Shown: one piece after another, positions 46,576 through 58,606 of the stretch
Layout of the letters: every line of letters starts with the position of its first letter
Numbering within the stretch: position 1 is the stretch's first letter
NCBI GenBank assembly: GCA_019358895.1
Contig: JAHHIG010000002.1
Span: forward strand, 1 to 64,000
DNA length: 64,000 nucleotides
Source of the DNA: Tildeniella nuda ZEHNDER 1965/U140
GTDB lineage: Bacteria > Cyanobacteriota > Cyanobacteriia > Leptolyngbyales > Leptolyngbyaceae
Direction: 5' to 3'
Notes under the pieces: generated by a model
Told to the model about the DNA's origin: nothing
The model's input: the letters and a program-made list of their open reading frames with translations, nothing else
The model's database searches: none
Translations under genes and position numbers: made by a program

Positions 46576-47292
46576 ATGAGGTCTGATCACTACCGCACTT
46601 TAAACGTGGCTCCCACAGCAACGCAGGCGGAGATTAAACAGGCATACCGTCAGTTAGCCAAACAATTTCACCCCGACAGTAACCGGGAAACCGCTAACCA
46701 CGAGAAAATCGCCAGGGTTAACGCTGCCTACGAAGTTCTGGGCGATCCCGAACATCGCAAATCTTACGACCAACAGTTACGGTACCTGACACAGCTTGAA
46801 GACGCTGGCTTTTCAGCAGGTAGAGGTAACCGACAGCAACGGACTGCCGCAGCCCAAGCGCGCCATCGCAAGCCACAGCAGACAGCCCAAAAAGCCGATG
46901 AGCATCTGCAACAGTGGCTGACTCAAGTTTACACACCCGTCAGTCAGCTAGTACTGCAAATTCTCAAACCATTGAAGGAGCAAATTGACGCGCTTGCGGC
47001 TGATCCGTTTGATGATTTCCTGATGGCAGATTTTCAAGAGTATTTGGAGGACTGCCGCGATCGCCTCAGTCATGCTGAAACCATCTTTCACTCGCTCCCC
47101 AATCCCAAAAGTCTGGCTGGCGTTGCAGCACATCTCTACTACTGCCTCAACCAGGTTGATGATGGGATTGAGCAGCTAGAGTTTTTCACGCTCAATTACG
47201 ATGACTCTTATCTGCATACAGGGCAAGAACTTTTTCGGATTGCCTCTGGGCTGCGTCGAGAGGCACAAGCCGCCGTGAAGGAAGTCACGTAA
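46576..47292 (+). CDS. DnaJ-domain protein
   Basis: 238 residues. An N-terminal J-domain (about residues 3-70) carries the HPD motif at 32-34 (AKQFHPDSN), followed by a basic, Gln-rich linker (about 75-110) and an alpha-helical C-terminal domain with LKPLKEQIDALAADPFDDFLMADFQ split into two helices. It lacks the Gly/Phe region and the zinc-finger of full DnaJ, so it is a specialised J-protein that recruits an Hsp70 to an unknown client. Same strand as cysK with 15 bases between them, so it is probably part of that operon. ATG at 46576. Confidence 0.85.
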   Translation: MRSDHYRTLNVAPTATQAEIKQAYRQLAKQFHPDSNRETANHEKIARVNAAYEVLGDPEHRKSYDQQLRYLTQLEDAGFSAGRGNRQQRTAAAQARHRKPQQTAQKADEHLQQWLTQVYTPVSQLVLQILKPLKEQIDALAADPFDDFLMADFQEYLEDCRDRLSHAETIFHSLPNPKSLAGVAAHLYYCLNQVDDGIEQLEFFTLNYDDSYLHTGQELFRIASGLRREAQAAVKEVT

Positions 47293-47338
47293 AGAGCTGC
47301 GGACGGTTAAGCCATTATGTTATAGTAGGCAGGCACAT

Positions 47339-47412
47339 CGGGGCGTAGCGCAGCTTGGTAGCGCACTACTTTGGGGTAGTAGGGGTCGTGAGTTCGAATC
47401 TCGCCGCTCCGA
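47339..47412 (+). tRNA. tRNA-Pro (anticodon GGG)
   Basis: Full cloverleaf: 7-base acceptor stem CGGGGCG/CGCTCCG (one G-U), D arm GCGC/GCGC, anticodon stem CTACT/AGTAG with loop TTGGGGT and anticodon GGG, T arm GTGAG/CTCGC with loop TTCGAAT, discriminator A, and no encoded CCA. It lies directly before the integrase gene, and its 3' half is the likely attachment site of the element. Confidence 0.93.
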
Positions 47413-47421
47413 TGGCATAAA

Positions 47422-47444
47422 ACCCGCTCTAGTAGCGGGTTTTT
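47422..47444 (+). terminator. Terminator after tRNA-Pro
   Basis: ACCCGCT / AGCGGGT stem with a CTAGT loop, followed by TTTTT, about 10 bases after the tRNA end. If the tRNA 3' end is the crossover site, this hairpin is on the element side. Confidence 0.8.
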
Positions 47445-47585
47445 GCGTTTTAAAGAAAGCCGGGTCTAGAGTCACCATTCTCAATAAGGTATCTCAACCT
47501 TACACATCCTGACACGGTTTCAAGCATTGATTGAGATACGATTGCGATACTGAATTCCACTGATAGCGACCTTTCAGGAGGGTAT

Positions 47586-48752
47586 GTGGTCAGAGCTGAT
47601 ATATCGAAATCGCCCAAACCGTTATCTCAATTAGGGAGGCGCAAGAAATCTCCGAAGGGGACGGTTGCAGTGCAGGCATTCAAAGGACGACTGCGTTTGT
47701 GTTGGAGCTATCAAAGTAAGCGGTACTTTCTGTATTTGGAACTGCCAGAGGGCAAGACCAATCGAACTGTGGCGGAGGGGAAGGCGAAGCAGATTGAGGG
47801 TGATATTGCGACAGGGAACTTCGATCGCACGTTGGTGAAGTACAAACCGGAGCGCCCCATCAGCGACCACATTACAGTAGCGGCATTGTTTGAGAAATTC
47901 ATCAGCTACAAAACGAAGCAGGTTTACAAACAGACGCTGGCAAAGTACACGGCACTGCTGGGCTATATCAATCAGTTCTTTAGGGGTAAAGCAGCGATCG
48001 CTCTAAGGGAGACTGAAGCTGAGGCGTTCAAAGTCTGGTTAGCGAAGCGAATCGCACCCATTACCCTACACGAGCGGATTACCTTGATGCGCGCCTGCTG
48101 GGAATGGGGAATGAAGCAGAAGCTGGTGGATAACAATCTGTGGGTGGACGTTCTAAAGACAGTGAAGGTGCCGCCCCGCCAGAAGGCAAAACCGTTTACC
48201 AAGGCGGAAATTGAGAAAATTCTGGAGGGTTTCAGGAGCGATCGCTACTACGCGCATTATTCAGGCTACGTAGAGTTTCTGCTATCAACGGGCTGTCGAA
48301 CAGGCGAAGCGATCGGGCTGCGGTGGGTACATCTCAACCATGATTGCTCCGTGGTTTGGATTGGAGAGAGTCTGAGCCGGGGGCATCGGAAAGAGGTGAA
48401 GAACAATCGAGCCAGGTTTGTATCTCTGACTCCGAGACTACAAGCAATGCTTCTCAGTCGAAAGCCTGCCGATGCAAAGCCGGATGATTTGGTGTTCCCG
48501 TCTCCTAAAGGTCGGGCGATCGACGATCACAACTTTAGGAACCGTGCCTGGAAAGCGGTACTGTCTAAGGTGGAGGTAGAGTACCGTAAGCCTTACACCA
48601 CCCGCAGCACCTTGATCTCTCATGCGCTGGATATGGGACTGAACCCGGCGATGATTGCAGAGATGACCGGACACGAGATTCAAACGCTCTTTCGAGATTA
48701 CGCGGGCAATGTTCAGGGAAGACCGAAACTACCGGAATTGATTGGTACTTGA
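47586..48752 (+). CDS. int: Tyrosine recombinase / integrase
   Basis: Phage-type site-specific tyrosine recombinase, 388 aa, from GTG at 47586 with an AGGAGGG ribosome site just before it. The N-terminal DNA-binding region (about residues 20-190) has the SAM-like core-binding helices (LRETEAEAFKVWLAKR). The catalytic domain has Arg238 (TGCRTGEAIGLRW), the TTRSTLISHAL box, TGHEIQTLF, and the nucleophile Tyr372 (FRDYAG). The box has Ser-Thr-Leu after the second Arg, a slight variant of the consensus HxxR. It lies 174 bases from the tRNA-Pro end and should mediate integration there. It ends overlapping the convergent excisionase-like gene by 24 bases. Confidence 0.93.
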   Translation: MVRADISKSPKPLSQLGRRKKSPKGTVAVQAFKGRLRLCWSYQSKRYFLYLELPEGKTNRTVAEGKAKQIEGDIATGNFDRTLVKYKPERPISDHITVAALFEKFISYKTKQVYKQTLAKYTALLGYINQFFRGKAAIALRETEAEAFKVWLAKRIAPITLHERITLMRACWEWGMKQKLVDNNLWVDVLKTVKVPPRQKAKPFTKAEIEKILEGFRSDRYYAHYSGYVEFLLSTGCRTGEAIGLRWVHLNHDCSVVWIGESLSRGHRKEVKNNRARFVSLTPRLQAMLLSRKPADAKPDDLVFPSPKGRAIDDHNFRNRAWKAVLSKVEVEYRKPYTTRSTLISHALDMGLNPAMIAEMTGHEIQTLFRDYAGNVQGRPKLPELIGT

Positions 48753-49019
48753 TTGGTTCTTCTTCTTAGACTGGTTGCCTAAGAGGGAAGCCAGGTAGAC
48801 TTCGATCGCTCGACGGTGGGCTGCTGGGTCGTCACGGTTGATGACCCAGTCTTCTAATAAGGCTTTGTTGTACCGAATGGTCTGGGAACTGAGGCGGGTA
48901 TAGTGAACGCCCTCAATCAGTTTCCCTTCCTGACGATATCGGTTGAGGGTGCCAGGGTGAACTTTGAGAAGTGCGGCGGCTTCGTGCTTGTCGATAAATT
49001 CAAACCGGATAGCGGTCAC
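48729..49019 (-). CDS. Excisionase-like HTH protein
   Basis: 96-residue DNA-binding protein with a MerR/excisionase-type winged helix at residues 7-60 (FIDKHEAAALLKVHPGTLNRYRQEG). The rest is a helical tail with lysine/asparagine-rich end. Start is GTG 49019, overlapping the upstream gene's TGA as GTGA (49016-49019), so the two are coupled. Convergent with int by 24 bases. It could direct excision or regulate the element; a helix-turn-helix transcription factor is the other possibility. Confidence 0.75.
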   Translation of the reverse strand: MTAIRFEFIDKHEAAALLKVHPGTLNRYRQEGKLIEGVHYTRLSSQTIRYNKALLEDWVINRDDPAAHRRAIEVYLASLLGNQSKKKNQSSTNQFR

Positions 49020-49990
49020 GATGCTTCACCTCTATTGCTTGACGCTTGAGTGCTCTGGTCTTGCCTATCCTCCACACCGCTGTTGGTGATGATGAAACCC
49101 CATTCCTGGTAGAGTTTGCAAAGGTCTTGGACTAAATCAGTCCAGCCTTCAGCCCAGAGCTGCCGTAGTTTGCCGAGTGCCCAAGCCCGATCACCATTGA
49201 GTACCGCTTGAGCACACGCCATTTCAATTTGAAAGCGATCTGGAACGGGCGGCGGAACGTTTACCCCCTTTTTGGATTCGAGGTGGTTGAGAAAGTCTTT
49301 TTGGTTCGCTTCAACGGTTGCCTGTATTTCGACCCACTGCTCGATGAGAGCTGGATATTGCGGTAGTTGTTTGGCTCGGTCTAGTAACCACTCTCGGAAG
49401 GCTGGCAGAAAATCTTCGTTGAGTAAAAATTGACTGTTTTTTCCTGTTCTTTCTGCCTGTCTCTCTCTCGCATGTATGAGAGAGTGTGGATCAGTATGAA
49501 GAGTATGAGGAGGCTCAGAACCCTCTGCCTGCAAAGGTCTTAGCTCCTCATTTGGATCGTTTGATCCCGTTGATGGCAGGGAGATCTGGTTGGTGGCAAC
49601 GGGATCGTTCTGTCGCCCTTTGGATCGTTTTGTCGGAAGGCGGATCTCTTTGCCCGTAGAATGATCGCGGGTTTTGACTGAAATGGTTGTATTGCGGCAC
49701 TTCCAGCGCTCAATCTGGAAGTCAAACAGGTCGCAGTCTTCTAGTCGGCGGGCGGCTCTTTGCACGGTGCGAGGGTCTACGGACAGCAGAGCGGCAATTT
49801 CAACAGGTGGGGGAATGTCTACCCAGCGATCGCCATAGGGGTCAAGTTCCCAGAGGTAAAGCCAGAGGTCATATTGAGTCCCTGTGAGCTTTAGGGTTCG
49901 GGCATACCGAATTAAGTCTTTGGGAATCTGCACGAACTGGGGAGGCTTTTGTATCCCTGATGCTTCAGAAGGTGAGGCTGGATTTGTCAT
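49016..49990 (-). CDS. Winged-helix protein, replication-initiator-like
   Basis: 324-residue protein from ATG at 49990 (MTNPASP). The N-terminal half holds a winged helix (residues about 25-100: LTGTQYDLWLYLWELDP; VEIAALLSVDPRTVQRAARRLE) of the type common in phage and plasmid replication proteins of cyanobacteria. The middle (about 110-190) is low-complexity and basic (TKRSKGRQNDP). The C-terminal half (about 200-324) has helical sequence with no known motif (ALGKLRQLWAEGWTDLVQDL). A role in replication or partition of the element is inferred. It is coupled to the excisionase-like gene by a 4-base overlap. Confidence 0.62.
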   Translation of the reverse strand: MTNPASPSEASGIQKPPQFVQIPKDLIRYARTLKLTGTQYDLWLYLWELDPYGDRWVDIPPPVEIAALLSVDPRTVQRAARRLEDCDLFDFQIERWKCRNTTISVKTRDHSTGKEIRLPTKRSKGRQNDPVATNQISLPSTGSNDPNEELRPLQAEGSEPPHTLHTDPHSLIHARERQAERTGKNSQFLLNEDFLPAFREWLLDRAKQLPQYPALIEQWVEIQATVEANQKDFLNHLESKKGVNVPPPVPDRFQIEMACAQAVLNGDRAWALGKLRQLWAEGWTDLVQDLCKLYQEWGFIITNSGVEDRQDQSTQASSNRGEAS

Positions 49991-50046
49991 GATGCAGATA
50001 AGTACAAGTAGATGCCCCGCTGCTGGCTGTAGATGGGGCATTTTTC

Positions 50047-50211
50047 CTATGCAGGCTTTTGTTGTTCTAGGTAGAGAAGGGCAGCTTGTTCAATGAGGTC
50101 GGAGAGGTGACACCGCTCTTTAATCGCTTTGATCTGTAGTTGCTCCTTTAAGTCAGGGTTCATGCGAATCGTGACGTTTTCGCGTTGCTTAGGCAGAGAG
50201 GATTGGCTCAT
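50047..50211 (-). CDS. Ribbon-helix-helix DNA-binding protein
   Basis: 54-residue CopG/Arc-type protein from ATG at 50211 (MSQSSLPKQRENVTIRMN). The RHH fold is clear: strand VTIRMNPDLKEQLQIKA, then helix IKERCHLSDLIEQAALLYLEQ. It could be an antitoxin or a transcriptional repressor; no toxin gene is adjacent, so a repressor of the divergent promoter is favoured. It lies divergent from the XRE gene; the inverted repeat at 50218-50247 between the two is a candidate operator. Confidence 0.75.
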   Translation of the reverse strand: MSQSSLPKQRENVTIRMNPDLKEQLQIKAIKERCHLSDLIEQAALLYLEQQKPA

Positions 50212-50217
50212 GGCTTT

Positions 50218-50247
50218 GAACAAAACTATGTTCGCTTTTGAACGAAC
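50218..50247. promoter_or_regulatory. Inverted-repeat operator in divergent promoter
   Basis: GTTC-N6-GAAC at 50230-50243 (GTTCGCTTTTGAAC), flanked by an additional GAAC at 50218-50221 and GAAC at 50244-50247, so three or four GAAC/GTTC half-sites are spaced 10-12 bases apart. It overlaps the -35 box of the plus-strand promoter at 50238. Confidence 0.6.
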
Positions 50248-50266
50248 TATCATTCAATAGGATAAT
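50238..50266 (+). promoter_or_regulatory. Promoter of the XRE-ATPase-STAND operon
   Basis: TTGAAC (50238-50243), a 17-base spacer, then GATAAT (50261-50266): a good sigma-70-type promoter, about 65 bases before the GTG at 50337. The -35 box lies within the GTTC/GAAC inverted repeat. Confidence 0.65.
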
Positions 50267-50336
50267 ACATGATTAAGCAATCATTTGATTGTGTGAGAGT
50301 TAATTCTGTGTTTCCTTAGAGTGAGGGTTCGTTGCG

Positions 50337-50783
50337 GTGTTTGTGGACGAAAACGTACTGAAACGATTAGCGGCTGCAACGTTGGAGGCAAGGGGTGAGT
50401 TGTCCCAGCGTGAATTTGCCCAACTACTAGATGTGTCGCAATCGACGGTGCAATCGTGGGAGAACGGCAAGAATTTGCCGAACCTGGAGAATCTAGAGAA
50501 GCTTGCCCGGAGGCGGGGGATGCTGGTTGAGGACTTTGTCGCTTACCTGTATGGGCGAAATCGGGGACTAACGAGCAAGGACATCCTGGATCGAGTTGAG
50601 GTGATGCCATCGCGGGATTTTGCCCAGGTAATGCGGGTGATGGCGGATCGGTTGGATACGGCGAAGGATGCACCGCCCGTGGTGAAGCGGGAGAAGGTGG
50701 CGGGGAAGGAGGAGCCGCGAATCAGGTTGGAGTTGCCGCAGAAAACAGAAAGTTCTGAATTAAATAAGCTTCGAGAAGAATAA
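50337..50783 (+). CDS. XRE family regulator of the NTPase operon
   Basis: 148-residue protein with an N-terminal Cro/CI-type helix-turn-helix at about residues 10-62 (ELSQREFAQLLDVSQSTVQSWENGKNLPNLENLEKL). Residues about 65-148 are a basic/acidic helical tail without known motif. GTG start at 50337 follows a GAGTGAGGG sequence that may be the ribosome site. It is the first gene of a same-strand run with the ATPase (42 bases downstream) and the STAND-WD40 gene. It probably represses or senses, controlling the run, as in many regulated conflict systems. Confidence 0.85.
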   Translation: MFVDENVLKRLAAATLEARGELSQREFAQLLDVSQSTVQSWENGKNLPNLENLEKLARRRGMLVEDFVAYLYGRNRGLTSKDILDRVEVMPSRDFAQVMRVMADRLDTAKDAPPVVKREKVAGKEEPRIRLELPQKTESSELNKLREE

Positions 50784-50825
50784 AGAGAGTTGCCCGCCTC
50801 GCAGTTGATCAGAGAGAAACGCGTT

Positions 50826-52178
50826 ATGAGTCTTGATCGAGCTAAATTTCGCAGAGCGTGTGACCCCAGTAAGACGCTGGTGTTTAAAAACCCTGAAGAC
50901 AAAAAATACTACATTGACTTTGCTTCAGTGCGAGGCAGCGAAGTTATCGAGGAGCTGAAAGGCAACATTGTTGATTTCTTTGATGTGCCGACCTGTGCCT
51001 TGTTCACGGGGCATATTGGGTGTGGTAAATCAACGGAACTGCTGCGGCTGAAAGCGGAACTAGAGGATGACGGTTTCCATGTGGTCTACTTTGTATCGAG
51101 TGATGATCTGGAAATGGCAGATGTTGATATTAGTGATGTGCTCTTAGCGATCGCGCGTCGGATTAGTGAGAGCCTGGAAAACATTCAACTCAGTCCTCAA
51201 GCCACTGGCTTTCGAGGGTTACTGGATGCCACCAAGAAAGTGCTCATGACCGAAGTAGAGGTGAAGGCAGGCGCGAGTCTTTTTGGTGGCAAAGTGGGGG
51301 TGGACACCACCAAGCGAGAGGTTTCTCTATCGGCTGGCATTGCCGAGCTGACTGTAACTGCCAAGAATGATCAGGGTTTGCGGGAGAAGCTGAATCAGTT
51401 CCTGGGTCCTCAAAAGAATAAGCTGCTGGAGACGATTAACCAGGAGTTGATTGCACCCGCGATCGCCCAACTTCAGCAAACGGGCAAAAAGGGTTTGGTC
51501 GTGATTATCGACAACCTGGATCGGATTGATAACCGTCAGAAGTCAGCCAGTCGATCGCAGCAGGAGTACCTGTTTATCGACCAAAACGAGTGTTTGCTCG
51601 GCTTACACTGTCATGTGGTGTACACCATGCCGCTGGCACTCAAATTCTCGCCCGATTACGAGACGCTGAAGCAGTGGTTTGGGGAAGAACCCAAGATGCT
51701 GCCGATGGTGCCAGTGCAGTATCGAGACGGCAGTGACTGTGAGACAGGTATGAACCTATTGCGTCAGATGGTGCTGGCGAGAGCATTTCCAGAACTCAGC
51801 CATGAGGAGCGGTTCAGCCAGATCACAGAGGTGTTTGACAGTGTAGAGAGTCTCGATCGGCTGTGCCGCATTTGTGGTGGGCACGTCCGGGATCTACTGC
51901 GACTCTTGAGTGAATGGATTGCCAAAGGGAAGCAACTGCCGCTAGCGGGTGATGTACTGGAGAGGCTCATTCGTGCCAGCCACAATGATACGACCATGAC
52001 CATTGCTAAAGAGGAATGGGAACTTTTGCGGCAAGTGCACCAGTCGCGGCGGGTCGGTCCTGATTTGGGCTACCAAACCTTGATTCGACGGCGGCTGGTC
52101 TTTGAGTACCGTGACAGCGATGGTTCCTGGTTCACAGTCAATCCCATTTTGCTGGGAGCAAGTGAGTTGCAGGTATGA
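50826..52178 (+). CDS. P-loop ATPase partner of the STAND protein
   Basis: 450 residues from ATG at 50826 (MSLDRAKFRRACDPSKTLVF). An upstream frame extension to 50790 is not supported. AAA-like P-loop ATPase: Walker A GHIGCGKST with Lys68, Walker B LVVIIDNLDRID at about residues 224-236, an insert at 125-200 rich in Gly/Val (VEVKAGASLFGGKVGVD), then a C-terminal helical, winged-helix-like part (about 380-450, LRQVHQSRRVGPDLGYQTLIRRRLV). No membrane segment. Its stop overlaps the STAND gene start as ATGA (52175-52178), so the two proteins are made together and probably act as a pair. Confidence 0.82.
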   Translation: MSLDRAKFRRACDPSKTLVFKNPEDKKYYIDFASVRGSEVIEELKGNIVDFFDVPTCALFTGHIGCGKSTELLRLKAELEDDGFHVVYFVSSDDLEMADVDISDVLLAIARRISESLENIQLSPQATGFRGLLDATKKVLMTEVEVKAGASLFGGKVGVDTTKREVSLSAGIAELTVTAKNDQGLREKLNQFLGPQKNKLLETINQELIAPAIAQLQQTGKKGLVVIIDNLDRIDNRQKSASRSQQEYLFIDQNECLLGLHCHVVYTMPLALKFSPDYETLKQWFGEEPKMLPMVPVQYRDGSDCETGMNLLRQMVLARAFPELSHEERFSQITEVFDSVESLDRLCRICGGHVRDLLRLLSEWIAKGKQLPLAGDVLERLIRASHNDTTMTIAKEEWELLRQVHQSRRVGPDLGYQTLIRRRLVFEYRDSDGSWFTVNPILLGASELQV

Positions 52179-55100
52179 GCGATCTCCCCTCGCAAGCGTT
52201 GATTGTGCATAACCAGTCGGAACTGGAGGATCTTGCCTGGGAACTTGAGTCGGCAGAGGGACAGTTTTCGCTGATGCTCGCGCGTTGCAACTATGCTCGC
52301 TTGCGGGACGAGTTGGTGGAACATCTGCGGCAGATTTGCTTTGTGGTGATCCGGGTCATGGTGTTGCAGCCCTCAGAAACAGCACTTTATACCCGGATTC
52401 AGAGTGAACTCAAGGGAGAACAACCCGGTGCGTTGATGGTGTTTGGCTTGGAGACGGTGGCTGACCTAGCGCAACTGCTATCCAACGCTAATCAAGTGCG
52501 GGAGGAGTTTCGCAAAAACTGTTCGTTCCCGATCGTGCTGTGGGTGACGGATGACGTGATGAAGGGGTTAGTTCATGCCGCTCCTGATCTGGAAAGCTGG
52601 TCAACCAAAACGCACTTTACACTACCGCTAGAAGCCCTCACACGATCACTAAAGCAAGCCGCAGATCATCTCTTCACTACCTTATTAGCTCCAGTAGCTC
52701 ACACATCCTTCGATGCATGGCGGCAAACCCTTGACTTAGGATTTCTGCAACCTTCAGAAGTGCGGTCTGCTATGCAAGATCTCCAACTTCAGGGAGAGAC
52801 TCTCGATCTAAGCCTGCAAGCCAGCCTAGATTTTGCGAAAGGCTTAAATGCCACAAATCTAACTGAGGCATTGGTGTTCTTTGAGCAGAGCTTACGATTT
52901 TGGCAGGAAGAAGAGAAGAGGGGAGAGGACGAACTGCCTAGCCTGAAAGTTGGCTTGCTGCTGATGCATATTGGGCGTGCCAAGGTTGCGATCGCGGAGA
53001 CTGCATCGCAGCAGCCCCCGGACTGGGAACCCATTCGGCAAACGTTGCAGCAGGCGATCGCCCGGTTTGAGCAGGCGGATCGTCTCGACCTGGTAGCGCT
53101 TTGCATTCCTCAACTGGAACGGGTGTTGCAGAAATTGCAGGCGTGGAATGAACTAGAGAGTGCTGCTAGAAAGGGTCTGGAACTGCATAAGGTCTACAGG
53201 AACCAGACACGCCTCTCTCAAGATTACGGCTTCCTGGCACGAGCCCTGCTGGAACGGCAGCAGTGGGCAGCAGCACGGGAGGCAGCGAACCAGGCACTAA
53301 CGGAGCTAGCAGGCGAACCAGACGATCGAAACTGGTTACGAGGACTCTATCGATTGTTTTTGGCACAAGCAGAGCAGCAATTGAGAGACCCTAAAACAGC
53401 GATCGCTCACCTGGAAGAAGCAAATGCTAGGGACGTGAGCGATCGCGGTTATCCGAAAATTGCCATCCAAATTTTGCGGAAACTGCGGGAACTGCACTTT
53501 GAGCAGAAGGATTACGTAGAGGCATTTCAGGCAAAACAAGAGCGTTTATCGATTGAGCAACAGTATGGGATTCGGGCATTTGTGGGCGCTGGACGATTGC
53601 GACCGCAGCGGCAAGCGGTGGTAACAGAGTTTCAGGCACCAACAGAAGGCATGGTTGCTCCCGAAATCGCGGCGGCTGGACGGCAACGGGATTTGGAGCG
53701 ACTGATCGAACGGGTGGAATTACGGGAATATCGCTTGATTGTGATTCACGGTAGCTCCGGAGTGGGCAAGAGTTCACTGGTCAATGCAGGACTAATACCA
53801 GCGCTACAGAAGCCAATTGCCGCACGCGATAATGTGCCGATCGTGATGCGAGTGTATACCCAATGGGTGAATGAGTTAGAAAGGCTACTGAGTGAGAGGT
53901 TGGGGGATCAGGCAGCAGCAGACATTCAAACCTTAGAAAGCAGCATTCAAACCTTACTCGCCCAATTGCGGCAACTCGATCAACGCAACCTGCGAACGGT
54001 GCTGATCTTCGATCAGTTTGAAGAGTTCTTTTTCACCTATCCCAAACCAGAAGACCGTAAACCGTTCTTTGACTTCCTGGTCAAATGTTTGCAGATTTTG
54101 TCAATCAAAGTGTTCCTGTCGCTTCGTGAGGACTACCTACACTTGCTGCTGGAATTTAATCGTTTGTTGGCAACAGTGAAAGAGCCTAAAACTGGCATTG
54201 ATGTTTTGAGCCGTAATGTGCTCTATAGTTTGGGCAATTTCTCGCTTGAAGACACGAGGGCAATTATTCATAGTCTGACAAATCGTGCTCACTTTTACCT
54301 GGAGCCAGCATTAGTCGATCAACTGGTAGTCGATCTGGCGGGTGATTTAGGGGAGGTGCGCCCGATCGAGCTTCAAGTGGTAGGGGCACAGTTGCAGGCA
54401 GATATGGTTACGACCCTGCCTCAATACCAGGCATTGGGCAGCAAACCCAAGGAAACATTGGTCGATCGCTACCTCTCGGAAGTGATTGCCGACTGTGGCG
54501 CTGAAAATCAGCAGTTAGCAGAACTGGTGCTATACCTGCTGACTGACGAAAAGGATACCCGTCCTCTTAAAACCAGAGTGGAGTTAGAGAAGGAATTGCA
54601 GGTACTAGAAGTGCTGGCAGAGACAACCACTTCCCTGGATCTAGTGCTGACGATCATTGTGAAATCTGGGTTAGTGGTGTTGCTTCCAGAAGCCCCTCAA
54701 GATCGTTACCAACTGGTGCACGACTACCTCGCGGCGTTTATCCGGCAGAAGCAGAAGGCAGATCTTGTCGAGGCACTGAAGCGCAGCAAGGAGGAGTTAA
54801 ATCAGGTTCTCAAGCGAAAATTGCGAGACTCCCGGATTGCAGGAGGCATTATGGGAGTGCTGACAGTTTTGGCGATCGGGCTGGGAATCAAATTCGCCTT
54901 CAACGCAGCCGATGCCAAATTAGACGCTCTTGCCCAATCCTCAGGATCGTTATTTAATGCCAATCGAAACTTTGATGCCTTGATAATCAGCATCAAAGCT
55001 GGGAAACAATTGAAGGGATCGTTGGACGTGAACCCAGATACTCGAATGAAGGTTATCACCTCTTTGCAACAGGCAATTCACGGCGTTAAAGAATTAAATA

Positions 55101-57826
55101 GCCTGGAAGGACATGGTAGCGGTGTTTCTAGCATTAGTATCAGTCCAAATGGTAAAACCATTGCCTCAATCGGTAAGGATAATACCATCAAGCTATGGAG
55201 TAGTGATGGGAAAGAGTTAAGGACGTTACAACAAGGCAAAGACAACAAGAATTCCCGCTTCAGTGGCATCCAATTTAGTCCAGATGGTCAATTGCTTGCT
55301 GCGGCAGATAAAGAGAACACAATTGCACTTTGGGAGCTTAGCGGAGAAAGACGACGGCTCTTCAAGGGACACACCGAGTGGGTATATGGGTTAAGCTTCA
55401 GTCCAGACGGGAAGATGCTTGCCTCAGCCAGTGTGGACAAAACGATTAAGCTCTGGAGTATCAACAACGGCAAGGAACTTAAAACGCTTAGGGGACATAC
55501 TGATGCTGTTACTGATGTTAGCTTTAGCCCTGATGGGAAAACGATTGCTTCAGCTAGTGACGACAAAACGATTAAGCTCTGGAGTCTTGATGGAAAAGAA
55601 CAGCGAACCCTGAAAAGTCATACGTTTGGGATTGTGACTGTCCGATTCAGCCCGAACAGTAAGCTGCTTGTTTCAGCGAGTCATGACAAGACCATCAAAC
55701 TTTGGAGTCTTGACGGTAAAGAACCGCAAACCTTCAGCGGACATAGTCAGGCTGTTCAAGCAGCTATTTTCAGCCCAGATGGCAGGACAATTGCTTCAAC
55801 CAGTGCTGATAAAACTATTAAACTATGGAACCTCTTTGGAGAGGAACTCCAGACTTTTAAGGGGCATAGTGACCAAATCAACGATATAGTTTTTAGCCCG
55901 GATGCTAAGACGATCATTTCAGCAAGCGATGACAGAGCTATTAAGCAATGGACCGTTGATTCAAAGAACTTCTACCCCATCAGAGGGCACACAGATATCG
56001 TTTCCAGCGCAAATCTTAGCCCGGATGGCACAACGATTGCCTCAGGTAGTAGGGATGGGACTATGAAGCTGTGGAAGGTTTCTGGGAAGGGACTAAAGAC
56101 GTTTGGAGGCTATGACGGTTGGATCAATGGCATCAGTTTCAGCCCAGATGGGAAGACGATCGCAGTAGGCAGTTCAGACAACTCGATTAAGTTGTGGAAT
56201 CTGGATGGGAAAGAACTCAAAACTCTCACGGGACATACTGGCTCTGTCTGGGGTGTCAGTTTTAGCCCTGATGGTAGCCTGATTGCCTCAGCTAGTGCCG
56301 ATAAGACGGTTAAGCTGTGGAATCTTAATGGAGATATGCTAAAAACATTTAAGGGACACACGGATGTAATATTGGGTGTCAGTTTCAGCCCTGATGGTAG
56401 CCTGATTGCCTCAGCTAGTGCCGATAAGACGGTTAAGCTGTGGAATCTGGATGGCGATTTGCTGACAACCTTCAAGGGACATACTGATGCACTTCATAGC
56501 GCCAGTTTCAGCCCGGATGGGAAATTACTCGTTTCGGGCAGTTCCGATAAAACTGTAAGACTCTGGACGGTTGATGGTTCGTTGAAATGGCTTAAAACCA
56601 TAGAATTTGACGATTGGATTACAACAGCTCGTTTCAGCCCAGATGGAAAATCCATTATTGCCGCCTGTGGAAACGGTACCATCCGTCTTTTCAGCCTTGA
56701 TGGCAAAGTAATTCACACATTTCGGGGACATTCTAGCGATGGAGTTCTCAGTGCCAACTTCAGCTCCGATGGGCAGACTCTTGTTTCTGGCGGAGATGAC
56801 CATTTGGTTAAGCTCTGGAAGCTTAATGGCGTGTTGCTCCAGACTTTTCCAGAGCAGAAGTATCGTAGGCATACTGCTGTGAACCGCGCCAGTTTCAGCC
56901 CCGATGGTAGAACCATTGCTTCAGCAGGAGAGGATAGTACCATTAAGCTGTGGAATCTTGAGCGAAAAGAACTTCAGACATTGAGAGGGCATAGTGATAG
57001 TATAACGGCTGTTAGCTTTAGCCCCGATGGCGCGTTGTTGGCTTCAGCTAGTCGAGATGGCACGATTAAGCTGTGGGATGCACAGGGAAAGGTATTGCAA
57101 ACCCTCGTAGGGCATGATGATGTAGTTTACGATGTCAGTTTCAGTCCAAATGGCAAACTGATTGCTTCAGCGAGTGGAGACAAAACAATTAAGCTTTGGA
57201 ACCTGGATGGAAAAAATCTACAAACTTTTGTGGAGGCGGATGAAGTATATGGCATCAGCTTTAGCCCTGATAGCAAATTGATTGCCTCTGCCAGTAGGGA
57301 TCGGACTGTAAAACTTCGGAATCTGGATGGCATAGTAATTCACACGATGAGTAAGCATTCTAGCTGGGTCAGCCAAGTTAGTTTTAGTCCCGATGGTAAA
57401 CTGATTGCCTCAGCTAGTTGGGATAATACTGTTAAGCTTTGGGACTTAAATGGGCGTGAACTTAGAACGCTTAAGGGGCACAGCAGCAACGTAAGTTCTG
57501 CCTACTTCAGCCCTGATGGGAAGAAACTTATCTCTAGTAGCAGTGATGGAACCGTTAAATTCTGGAGTATAGATGGCACGCTTCTACAAAGTATTTCTGA
57601 TTCTGAAACTGTAAACAGCACCTTATCAGCTCTTGACGCAAGGCTTAGCCCAGATGGTCTAACGATCGCCGTTGCTACTGATAGTGATGGGTTAGTTCTA
57701 TGGAATATGAGCCTGGACACTCTTCTTGTAGAAGCCTGCACCAAAGCTCGTGCTTATTTGAGGACCAGCAGCAATCTTGAAAAGAGCGATCGAACTCTCT
57801 GCGATGACGTTAGCACTCAAAAATAG
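52175..57826 (+). CDS. STAND NTPase with 21 WD40 blades
   Basis: 1883-residue protein. Residues about 1-175 form a domain found at the start of cyanobacterial conflict NTPases (ALIVHNQSELEDLAWELESA). A helical TPR-like region (about 215-485) follows. The nSTAND NTPase has Walker A GSSGVGKSS with Lys532 and Walker B LIFDQFEEFFF at about 609-620. A transmembrane-like helix is at about 889-910 (GGIMGVLTVLAIGLGIKF). Residues about 974-1848 contain 21 WD40 repeats with GH and LW marks, enough for three seven-bladed propellers, then a Cys-containing tail. A ligand-sensing, NTP-driven oligomeric switch is the likely role. The membrane helix suggests the effector acts at the membrane. I infer an anti-phage or conflict function from architecture. 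Confidence 0.87.
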   Translation: MSDLPSQALIVHNQSELEDLAWELESAEGQFSLMLARCNYARLRDELVEHLRQICFVVIRVMVLQPSETALYTRIQSELKGEQPGALMVFGLETVADLAQLLSNANQVREEFRKNCSFPIVLWVTDDVMKGLVHAAPDLESWSTKTHFTLPLEALTRSLKQAADHLFTTLLAPVAHTSFDAWRQTLDLGFLQPSEVRSAMQDLQLQGETLDLSLQASLDFAKGLNATNLTEALVFFEQSLRFWQEEEKRGEDELPSLKVGLLLMHIGRAKVAIAETASQQPPDWEPIRQTLQQAIARFEQADRLDLVALCIPQLERVLQKLQAWNELESAARKGLELHKVYRNQTRLSQDYGFLARALLERQQWAAAREAANQALTELAGEPDDRNWLRGLYRLFLAQAEQQLRDPKTAIAHLEEANARDVSDRGYPKIAIQILRKLRELHFEQKDYVEAFQAKQERLSIEQQYGIRAFVGAGRLRPQRQAVVTEFQAPTEGMVAPEIAAAGRQRDLERLIERVELREYRLIVIHGSSGVGKSSLVNAGLIPALQKPIAARDNVPIVMRVYTQWVNELERLLSERLGDQAAADIQTLESSIQTLLAQLRQLDQRNLRTVLIFDQFEEFFFTYPKPEDRKPFFDFLVKCLQILSIKVFLSLREDYLHLLLEFNRLLATVKEPKTGIDVLSRNVLYSLGNFSLEDTRAIIHSLTNRAHFYLEPALVDQLVVDLAGDLGEVRPIELQVVGAQLQADMVTTLPQYQALGSKPKETLVDRYLSEVIADCGAENQQLAELVLYLLTDEKDTRPLKTRVELEKELQVLEVLAETTTSLDLVLTIIVKSGLVVLLPEAPQDRYQLVHDYLAAFIRQKQKADLVEALKRSKEELNQVLKRKLRDSRIAGGIMGVLTVLAIGLGIKFAFNAADAKLDALAQSSGSLFNANRNFDALIISIKAGKQLKGSLDVNPDTRMKVITSLQQAIHGVKELNSLEGHGSGVSSISISPNGKTIASIGKDNTIKLWSSDGKELRTLQQGKDNKNSRFSGIQFSPDGQLLAAADKENTIALWELSGERRRLFKGHTEWVYGLSFSPDGKMLASASVDKTIKLWSINNGKELKTLRGHTDAVTDVSFSPDGKTIASASDDKTIKLWSLDGKEQRTLKSHTFGIVTVRFSPNSKLLVSASHDKTIKLWSLDGKEPQTFSGHSQAVQAAIFSPDGRTIASTSADKTIKLWNLFGEELQTFKGHSDQINDIVFSPDAKTIISASDDRAIKQWTVDSKNFYPIRGHTDIVSSANLSPDGTTIASGSRDGTMKLWKVSGKGLKTFGGYDGWINGISFSPDGKTIAVGSSDNSIKLWNLDGKELKTLTGHTGSVWGVSFSPDGSLIASASADKTVKLWNLNGDMLKTFKGHTDVILGVSFSPDGSLIASASADKTVKLWNLDGDLLTTFKGHTDALHSASFSPDGKLLVSGSSDKTVRLWTVDGSLKWLKTIEFDDWITTARFSPDGKSIIAACGNGTIRLFSLDGKVIHTFRGHSSDGVLSANFSSDGQTLVSGGDDHLVKLWKLNGVLLQTFPEQKYRRHTAVNRASFSPDGRTIASAGEDSTIKLWNLERKELQTLRGHSDSITAVSFSPDGALLASASRDGTIKLWDAQGKVLQTLVGHDDVVYDVSFSPNGKLIASASGDKTIKLWNLDGKNLQTFVEADEVYGISFSPDSKLIASASRDRTVKLRNLDGIVIHTMSKHSSWVSQVSFSPDGKLIASASWDNTVKLWDLNGRELRTLKGHSSNVSSAYFSPDGKKLISSSSDGTVKFWSIDGTLLQSISDSETVNSTLSALDARLSPDGLTIAVATDSDGLVLWNMSLDTLLVEACTKARAYLRTSSNLEKSDRTLCDDVSTQK
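56251..56448. repeat. Near-identical WD40 repeats (recent duplication)
   Basis: The 75-base blocks at 56251-56325 and 56374-56448 differ at a single position (GTCAGTTTTAGCCC versus GTCAGTTTCAGCCC). Other blades are more divergent, so this pair (blades 10 and 11) arose by a recent tandem duplication or gene conversion. Confidence 0.9.
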
Positions 57827-57832
57827 ATTGAA

Positions 57833-57956
57833 CTAGAACTCTGCAACCTCCTCTAAAAACGATCGCACCTTTTCGTTTCTCGTCTTACCGTATGCCCGGT
57901 AGAGTTTAAATTTAGCAATTGTGCCTGCGAGAAAGGCACGATCGCCGCTCCTATGT
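57833..57956 (-). pseudogene. C-terminal remnant of an unknown gene
   Basis: A minus-strand frame of about 40 codons without a start, ending with the motif KTRNEKVRSFLEEVAEF and a stop at 57833. Amino-acid composition looks coding (Lys/Glu/Arg alternation and helix-like). It overlaps the 3' end of the VapC gene in another frame. It could be a leftover of a gene cut by arrival of the VapBC module, or a chance frame. Confidence 0.3.
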
Positions 57957-58358
57957 CTCTAACTCCCAATCTTCCATCTGCAACGCCTCAACCCGGCTAA
58001 ACTCACGAGTATTGTGGGTAACGAGCGTCAGATGATGGGCGATCGCGATCGCCGCAATCTGAACATCATAGGGACCAATGGGAATTCCTTGAGTCGCAAG
58101 CTGACCTCGGATACGACCGCAGATGAGCGCTACCTGATCATCAAACGGTAGAGACACAAATTGCGCCACAAATGCTTGCTGGATGCGGAGACTACGGGTT
58201 GGATCGCGGCTCAACATCGCTCCGTAAAACAACTCTGTTTTGACAATGGAGCAGAGCGCGATATCGCTGGGAGGTAATGCTGCCAGCCTGCGAATAAGCC
58301 CTGCATTCTGTCCGCGTAAGTAGACAATGCAGGCATTGGTGTCTAGTAAATAGATCAT
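57951..58358 (-). CDS. vapC: PIN-domain toxin VapC
   Basis: 135-residue PIN-domain ribonuclease, the toxin of a type II VapBC toxin-antitoxin pair. The acidic Mg2+ site is Asp6 (LLDTNA), Glu42 (KTELFYGA), Asp98 (GPYDVQIAA) and Asn116 (VTHNTREF), in the order of the family. ATG at 58358 overlaps the VapB stop by four bases (58355-58358). The same-strand partner and overlap identify the pair. The target RNA (tRNA or rRNA) cannot be inferred. Confidence 0.93.
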   Translation of the reverse strand: MIYLLDTNACIVYLRGQNAGLIRRLAALPPSDIALCSIVKTELFYGAMLSRDPTRSLRIQQAFVAQFVSLPFDDQVALICGRIRGQLATQGIPIGPYDVQIAAIAIAHHLTLVTHNTREFSRVEALQMEDWELET

Positions 58359-58606
58359 TCCAGAAGCACTCGCGCTTCATACTCTCCCTGAGGCTGGCGA
58401 ACAAATGAGTCATCATCCGCGAAAGCGCCCGCAGTCTCGGCAAAAAAACCTTCGGGCCAGCCCAACTCTACACCCAGCTTCCTGTCCAAATTGGCAGGAA
58501 TGGGCTGAATCGTAATACTGACATCCTGATCCTTCAGGTCGTCTGGGACTTGCAGGTGCAGAACACCATCTGATCCAACATGAGAGCGGAGAGTAATACG
58601 TTGCAT
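58355..58606 (-). CDS. VapB-type antitoxin
   Basis: 83-residue small protein directly upstream of VapC, overlapping by four bases. The N-terminal about 30 residues (RITLRSHVGSDGVLHLQVP) suggest a beta-rich AbrB-like or related DNA-binding end, and the C-terminal part is acidic (ADDDSFVRQPQGEYEA) as expected for a toxin-binding tail. It would neutralise VapC and autoregulate the pair. Confidence 0.75.
   Translation of the reverse strand: MQRITLRSHVGSDGVLHLQVPDDLKDQDVSITIQPIPANLDRKLGVELGWPEGFFAETAGAFADDDSFVRQPQGEYEARVLLE

Follow-up and report, generated by a model that had tools for sequence, protein, structure and literature searches.

Candidate operators and a bidirectionally readable -10-like box between divergent RHH and XRE regulator genes of a cyanobacterial tRNA-Pro island

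How might transcription be controlled between two small regulator genes that diverge from one short intergenic region, and which of the repeats lying between them is the likely operator? The region in question (50212 to 50342, 131 nt) is part of a 64,000-nucleotide stretch of Tildeniella nuda DNA that was analyzed as a whole and is referred to here as the window. A sequence-only reading had placed at 50218 to 50266 a promoter with its -35 box buried in a GTTC/GAAC inverted repeat. As that reading stated, an RHH gene and an XRE gene flank the span in opposite directions, RHH leftward and XRE rightward. The RHH (CopG/Arc-like) regulator of 54 amino acids is encoded at 50047 to 50211 on the minus strand and matched Pfam RHH_1 (E = 3.9e-5), the PHROG Arc-like repressor (E = 6.1e-5), and, among solved structures, 2kel (E = 0.0065). 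The first base of its start codon, 50211, was picked from orthologue N termini. A longer form starting at 50253 was rejected; the compared orthologues start at the shorter form. The XRE regulator (50343 to 50783, plus strand) matched Pfam HTH_3 (E = 1.6e-12), and its profile matched a designed DNA binder among the solved structures (E = 2.2e-8). Its conserved start is the GTG at 50343, with a second GTG at 50337, and most orthologues have a V/L/M-D-E or -D-D/-N-E N terminus at the 50343 position. PADLOC matched the XRE helix-turn-helix to RmrA (E = 5.4e-8) by the common domain only and gave no match for the RHH protein or for the replication-like protein encoded behind it (for the latter, none at 0.1). 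The two divergent regulator genes have one common control region, as do those of CI/Cro-like switches.

The pair is carried by an integrative island. A tyrosine integrase gene (47586 to 48752, plus strand; Pfam Phage_integrase, E = 1.4e-17; PHROG integrase, E = 4.4e-42) adjoins a tRNA-Pro gene at 47338 to 47413 (47339 to 47412 according to Rfam, which found nothing else in 47000 to 58000). The 3' 48 nt of this tRNA-Pro(ggg) gene, attL (47366 to 47413, plus strand), recur identically at G000:C11:89596-89643. The att repeats are thus approximately 42 kb apart, and the island runs past the end of the window. Behind RHH lies a gene for a replication-initiation-like protein (49016 to 49990, minus strand) with a weak match to PHROG O-like proteins (E = 0.0085) and no Pfam match at 0.01; its likely start, 49990, was chosen by comparison with L060 and L055, and the open reading frame extends to 50041. 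It is followed by a gene for an excisionase-like HTH protein (48729 to 49019, minus strand; PHROG excisionase and transcriptional regulator, E = 1.2e-6; HTH_17). By eye, a recombinase-like open reading frame was also noticed within the island, near 68620 to 69225. The same genome harbors a decayed second island at a tRNA-Val gene (L003:10934-12673; G000:C11, approximately 568.9 to 570.7 kb) that contains a truncated integrase, a rep fragment, an RHH gene 96% identical to that of the window, the control region, and a WD40 fragment nearby. Its identity to window positions 49710 to 50319 is 94%, and it ends before XRE. Compared with 50212 to 50319, it shows eight differences, all of them left of 50267.

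On the other side, XRE is followed by genes for an AAA/KAP-like NTPase (50826 to 52178, plus strand; Pfam AAA_22, E = 1.8e-6) and for a large protein in which WD40 propellers were identified by domain matches (52175 to 57826, plus strand). The PADLOC matches of the NTPase (PDC-S20, E = 5.7e-6) and of the WD40 region (HEAT-ARM_XIII, E = 1.4e-69) reflect common domains only. The NTPase ATG at 50826 starts 42 nt behind XRE. Compared with L154, the closest relative of the NTPase, homology sets in at about 50823, three nucleotides upstream of this ATG. Because the upstream DNA of that relative is missing here, cotranscription of the NTPase gene with XRE is plausible. Further downstream, at 57951 to 58606, we noticed by eye an open reading frame for a PIN-domain-like toxin preceded by a small minus-strand partner, resembling a VapBC pair.

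Other cargo follows XRE in other islands: CHAT-TPR in Elainella, Uma2 and nSTAND1 in G015, and a VMAP-C/trypsin-like protein together with an AAA protein in MO_188.B28; in G011, a NACHT gene is found on the opposite strand. Relatives of the NTPase occur at 50 places in 26 of the 42 genomes of the order (L154 to L172 among them). In 20 of these 50 loci, the window's included, the surroundings of the gene were compared. A relative of the N-terminal part of the large protein stood beside the NTPase in 14, whereas RHH/XRE was found near it in the window's locus only; the other 19 were without the pair over 0.6 to 1.5 kb upstream, a contig end lying less than 1.5 kb upstream in four of the loci (the shortest, about 0.6 kb). 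G035 lies outside these 20 loci, and its truncated NTPase gene likewise follows XRE. Since the islands differ in their cargo and RHH/XRE is missing upstream in all but one of the 20 NTPase loci, we assign the hub, on the basis of these comparisons, to the island backbone and not to regulation of the NTPase system. The region had been described as the promoter of an NTPase operon; this holds in that it is a control region with two regulators from which the NTPase gene is plausibly cotranscribed, but the hub is not tied to an immune system. Repression to suit a costly immune system is too narrow a purpose for a hub that does not accompany the NTPase pair.

The RHH/XRE pair has a divergent arrangement in 11 loci, in which the window and G035, as well as G011a and G011b, are near-copies. 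These loci derive from genomes of the order and of the phylum, from a scan of named genomes (Stenomitos rutilans, Elainella saxicola, a Leptolyngbya, and two Leptolyngbyaceae records), and from one viral-collection contig. G035 and G011b were left out of the nine-locus footprint, which includes the window. Further loci were obtained by a later class-wide profile search, in which the RHH profile matched 21 places in 17 of 329 genomes, 17 of the 21 beside an XRE match; the places without one were the decayed copy in the same genome, G011:C66, G531, and G095. The held-out set of nine loci excludes L113 to L115 (near-copies of L112), L107 (identical to Elainella), and the more distant L126 and L127. 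In L116, no RHH start was found, and the comparison took the 190 nt preceding XRE. Searching 386 genomes of the phylum with the single RHH sequence (1e-6) matched the own genome only. Plasmids gave no XRE match at 1e-6, and viral contigs yielded one clear XRE relative and three short partial ones, with no RHH relative. XRE relatives at 33 to 41% identity (L023 to L050) were left out as footprint partners; their recognition helix is mostly different. By eye, AGTAAACTTGTAA-type repeats were common to several of the regions upstream of XRE relatives in other families (among L026 to L047). Upstream of XRE in L119 (G576:C526), tandem 8-bp ACGTAATT repeats adjoin a CATAAT box and recall tandem met-box-like RHH arrays.

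Conservation was scored as summed mismatches across the eight loci besides the window. The lowest sums were obtained for O2, TGATTAAGCAATCATTTGATT, which reads TGATT-N4-AATCA-N2-TGATT and lies at 50270 to 50290, just outside the span flagged earlier. AATCA-N2-TGATT gave 9 mismatches against 22.4 expected and TGATT-N4-AATCA gave 11 against 22.6, each reached by 0 of 1,000 shuffles. The loci of this test had also served to define O1 and O2, and only the nine later loci are held out. There, the two O2 patterns scored 16 versus 27.4 and 15 versus 27.7 (0 of 1,000 shuffles each). Without L120 and L121, which represent one genus and supply the strongest O2 matches of the held-out set, the values were 16 versus 21.5 (5 of 1,000) and 14 versus 21.5 (0 of 1,000). 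Of the first nine loci, several were not significant alone. A dyad search without prior motif found TGAT-N6-ATCA in five of nine loci; in 200 shuffled sets, no 4-bp dyad reached more than three. O2 does not keep one position: the end of AATCA-N2-TGATT is 50 to 60 nt from the XRE start in six of the nine loci and 90 to 136 nt in G034, G011, and L064, and in L120 and L121, AATCA dyads of both spacings are exact and lie close to the RHH start, at 143 to 166 nt from XRE. In L119, L123, L124, and L125, ACGT-rich stretches were seen by eye at the expected place of O2; a test with TTACGTAA gave P = 0.058. With at most one mismatch, O2 occurs at two places in the 6.1-Mb genome, both at copies of the RHH hub. 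Over 42 genomes, this one included, such matches were found in 31 (71 matches versus 14 for a reversed control). Because only 3 of the 71 are exact (two in this genome and one in G035), the one-mismatch pattern is not specific.

The second dyad, O1 (GAACTATCATTC, GAAC-N4-RTTC, 50244 to 50255), includes the half-site at 50244 of the sequence-only reading. GAAC-N4-GTTC accumulated 13 mismatches versus 20.2 expected in the eight loci besides the window (0 of 1,000 shuffles), and the O1 end precedes the TGATT-N4-AATCA end by 28 nt in the window, Elainella, G040, and G015. As a set, it was not kept in the nine further loci (24 versus 23.7; P = 0.67), and O1 was rejected as a general operator. On these alignments, O2 is the widely conserved site and O1 a feature of the closest relatives.

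Which protein would bind which dyad is a closer question. We give about an even chance to the candidate assignment of XRE to O2 and RHH to O1. It places each site next to its own gene, O2 adjoining the XRE side and O1 the RHH side, and in size the 14-bp TGATT-N4-AATCA corresponds to 434-type XRE operators. TGAACG was present in all five loci with the RHH strand ENxTIRM and in none of the other four among the first nine, in most of which the XRE helix hardly differs; this correlation was drawn post hoc and follows phylogeny, and it mildly favors RHH for the GAAC sites. TGAACG was absent from all nine later loci, including L112, L120, and L121 with RHH strand QNxTIRM. Covariation of helix or strand with O2 gives conflicting signals as to its owner. 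The swapped arrangement, with RHH on the AATCA array of O2 and XRE on the GAAC or other sites, we consider a serious but less probable alternative. The hub would be the same with its wiring reversed, RHH being the repressor of XRE and cargo. Exact AATCA dyads adjoin the RHH gene in L120 and L121, where the RHH strand (QNxTIRMN) is nearly as in the window and the XRE helix is changed. In the decayed copy, which has no XRE, O2 is intact in every letter, although that copy decayed recently. The RHH protein here has a T-x-R strand, as does the omega repressor. According to the extract of PMC4803016 available, omega, itself an RHH protein, binds NATCACN heptads. The NATCACN sequence resembles AATCA. 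However, the O2 half-sites start 9 and 7 nt apart and do not form contiguous heptads. G011:C66, G531, and G095, which have no XRE match in approximately 3 kb, also speak against the swap, as by eye they are without an exact AATCA-N2-TGATT or TGATT-N4-AATCA upstream (their RHH strands differ too, and G531 has a lone AATCATATGAC), and so does the 434-type size of the dyad.

Between O1 and O2 lies a -10-like box, GATAAT (50261 to 50266), whose position is kept in the window, Elainella, G040, and G015. Read rightward with TTGAAC (50238 to 50243) at a distance of 17 nt, it matches the promoter consensus at 9 of 12 positions. The letters and spacing had been read correctly, but the putative -35 is weakly supported: the hexamer 17 nt upstream of the box is TTGAAC in the window and G035 only (4/6 each), and the best -35 in Elainella, G040, and G015 scores 3/6. 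Across the window, Elainella, G040, and G015, rightward -10 scores are 5, 5, 4, and 4 and -35 scores 4, 3, 3, and 3, and the conserved -35 plus -10 of a sigma70 type 1 promoter was not found in this direction. On the opposite strand, the complement of 50262 to 50267 is TATTAT, and the corresponding hexamers in the same four loci are TATTAT, TATTAT, TATAAT, and TATAAT (5, 5, 6, and 6 of 6). With these leftward hexamers and TTTACA-16-TATAAT in G015, an 11/12 match, the box may fire in either direction; a -10-only cyanobacterial promoter and a bidirectional promoter would both fit it. Promoter-like matches as such were not above shuffles (2 versus 2.6 in 4 kb; 1 versus 0.6 in 711 bp). The stronger leftward hexamers and the G015 promoter, set beside the weaker rightward -10 and -35 scores, could mean that the box serves the leftward RHH-rep-xis promoter only and that XRE and its cargo start elsewhere. 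We regard this as unlikely, since leftward -35 scores are poor in the window, Elainella, and G040 (3, 2, and 1 of 6) and two-way use of one promoter is common in bacteria, as stated in the extracts of PMC12825309 and PMC10268837.

The reading that we prefer, and hold to be reasonably probable, is an autoregulated CI/Cro-like divergent switch of the tRNA-Pro island whose rightward transcript now includes immune-type cargo. The sequences show the genes, the island ends, a -10-like box and an O1 conserved among close relatives, an O2 conserved more widely, and cargo that is exchanged. We infer that the region is transcribed leftward or rightward and bound by the regulators, which of them takes which dyad, and how the switch behaves. 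Leftward, RHH would head a set with the replication-like gene and xis; rightward, XRE would head a transcript running into the exchangeable NTPase and WD40 cargo. The -10-like box, readable both ways, sits between O1 on the RHH side and O2 on the XRE side. If both directions are used, the coordinates would put the start of the leftward transcript and the spacer of the rightward promoter under O1, with the opposite holding for O2. Each dyad would thus cover the start of its nearer transcript as well as the other one's spacer or -35 region, so that occupancy of one dyad should impede both promoters. With XRE most likely holding O2 and RHH holding O1, XRE would keep the island quiet and curb both its own level and the cargo's, and RHH would limit the replication/excision side. 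Tight repression, as expected earlier, is doubtful in this arrangement. XRE is the first gene of the rightward transcript, and repression by XRE would therefore amount to negative autoregulation and not to a shut-off.

The GAAC/GTTC words themselves form a cluster. Four half-sites are found within 50218 to 50247 (GAAC at 50218 to 50221, GTTC at 50230 to 50233, and GAAC at 50240 to 50243 and 50244 to 50247), and a fifth word of the intergenic region occurs at 50327. Five words in 131 nt compare with 1.14 expected and were reached in 2 of 1,000 dinucleotide shuffles, as was the count of four within one 49-nt stretch; the word was picked post hoc, after looking. The letters are as had been read and the cluster is above chance, but the half-sites are not regularly spaced (steps of 12, 10, and 4 nt), and GTTC-N6-GAAC is not an operator kept in relatives. 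Its summed mismatches were 21 versus 20.2 expected in the eight loci besides the window (P = 0.76) and 24 versus 23.7 in the nine held-out loci (P = 0.67). GTTCG-N8-CGAAC was not conserved either (34 versus 31.1), and GAAC-N8-GTTC was weak (16 versus 20.3; P = 0.017). A perfect inverted repeat with 5-bp arms 3 to 10 nt apart, such as GTTCG-N8-CGAAC, is present in 61% of shuffles. GTTC-N6-GAAC occurs three times in the 64-kb window, compared with 0.92 expected, and 3 of 100 shuffles reach this number. The GAAC at 50240 has become GAGC in the second copy within the same genome, and that at 50244 is GAAA in G035, from a species of the same genus. The leftward hairpin at 50230 to 50247 was rejected as a terminator; the terminator scans gave 1 match versus 4.4 expected (4 kb) and 1 versus 0.4 (711 bp).

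Because of the mismatch tests in both sets of loci, we take O2 to be the widely conserved site and the GTTC/GAAC repeat to be confined to the window and near copies of it; GTTC-N6-GAAC is probably not the main operator. What survives of the flagged span is the half-site at 50244 as part of the conserved O1 dyad, whereas the more widely conserved O2 lies outside it. That the repeat at 50230 to 50243 is the main operator over a true -35 and tightly represses a costly immune operon is accordingly improbable in our view: the cluster, the 9/12 promoter score, and the NTPase gene directly behind XRE speak for it, but the repeat is not conserved, its half-sites drift in near copies, the -35 is not conserved, and the hub is not tied to the NTPase pair. 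That AT-rich intergenic DNA without specific operators produced all of this by chance is highly improbable: shuffles often contain a single inverted repeat with 5-bp arms and are not exceeded by the promoter scans, but the O2 patterns recur in held-out loci at 0 of 1,000 shuffles and the full pattern occurs in this genome at two hub copies only. An eye-catching repeat can mislead; the relatives point to a neighboring site.

A broader and rather speculative idea, to which we assign a low probability, is that cyanobacterial tRNA islands carry the hub as a portable control cassette, with a bidirectional -10 box between unlike RHH and XRE operators, and that successive immune-type cargos dock behind its XRE gene and lose their own promoters. 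If this were true, immune gene expression would depend on whether the island stays quiet or is close to moving. The preferred reading itself, if right, would make the regulator pair with its operators the mark of a family of cyanobacterial islands with a slot for exchangeable cargo behind XRE, and would couple the expression of that cargo to the state of the island.

Several known systems invite comparison. CI/Cro-type divergent repressor switches occur in temperate phages and integrative elements, including Stl/Str of SaPIs. The hub resembles them in having two small divergent DNA-binding regulators with candidate operators between them that would overlap the putative promoters, and replication/excision-like genes behind one regulator (xis-like, E = 1.2e-6; O-like, weak, E = 0.0085). 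Unlike in those switches, one regulator is an RHH and not an HTH protein, the two dyads differ in sequence, immune-type cargo lies behind the XRE side, and binding and mutual repression are putative. The island likewise resembles phage satellites, PICIs, and P4-like elements, as described in the extract of PMC9122126, in its integrase, tRNA attachment site, xis-like and replication-like genes, divergent regulators, and exchangeable defense-type cargo. Phage satellites measure 7 to 20 kb according to the part of PMC13376191 available. With approximately 42 kb between its att repeats, the island exceeds this compact size and is possibly composite, and it differs further in that no helper is known for it.

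At the level of sites, the likeness to the omega repressor of pSM19035 (extract of PMC4803016) consists in the RHH fold and the repeated AATCA-like boxes in both orientations. Omega operators are contiguous NATCACN heptads, whereas the boxes here are spaced at 9 and 7 nt and are without the terminal C of ATCAC; the contiguous heptads of an omega-type RHH operator were not found. Cyanobacterial type 2 promoters have a -10 only, as set out in the extract of PMC2758279, and the conserved -10-like box with its unconserved -35 resembles them, with the difference that no activator site was found here. In the literature searched, the extracts contained no description of such an RHH/XRE hub, and those of PMC9499535 and PMC7159879 had no bearing on it. 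A divergent repressor switch is a known kind of control; here it comes with the pairing of an RHH and an XRE regulator and with exchangeable immune-type cargo.
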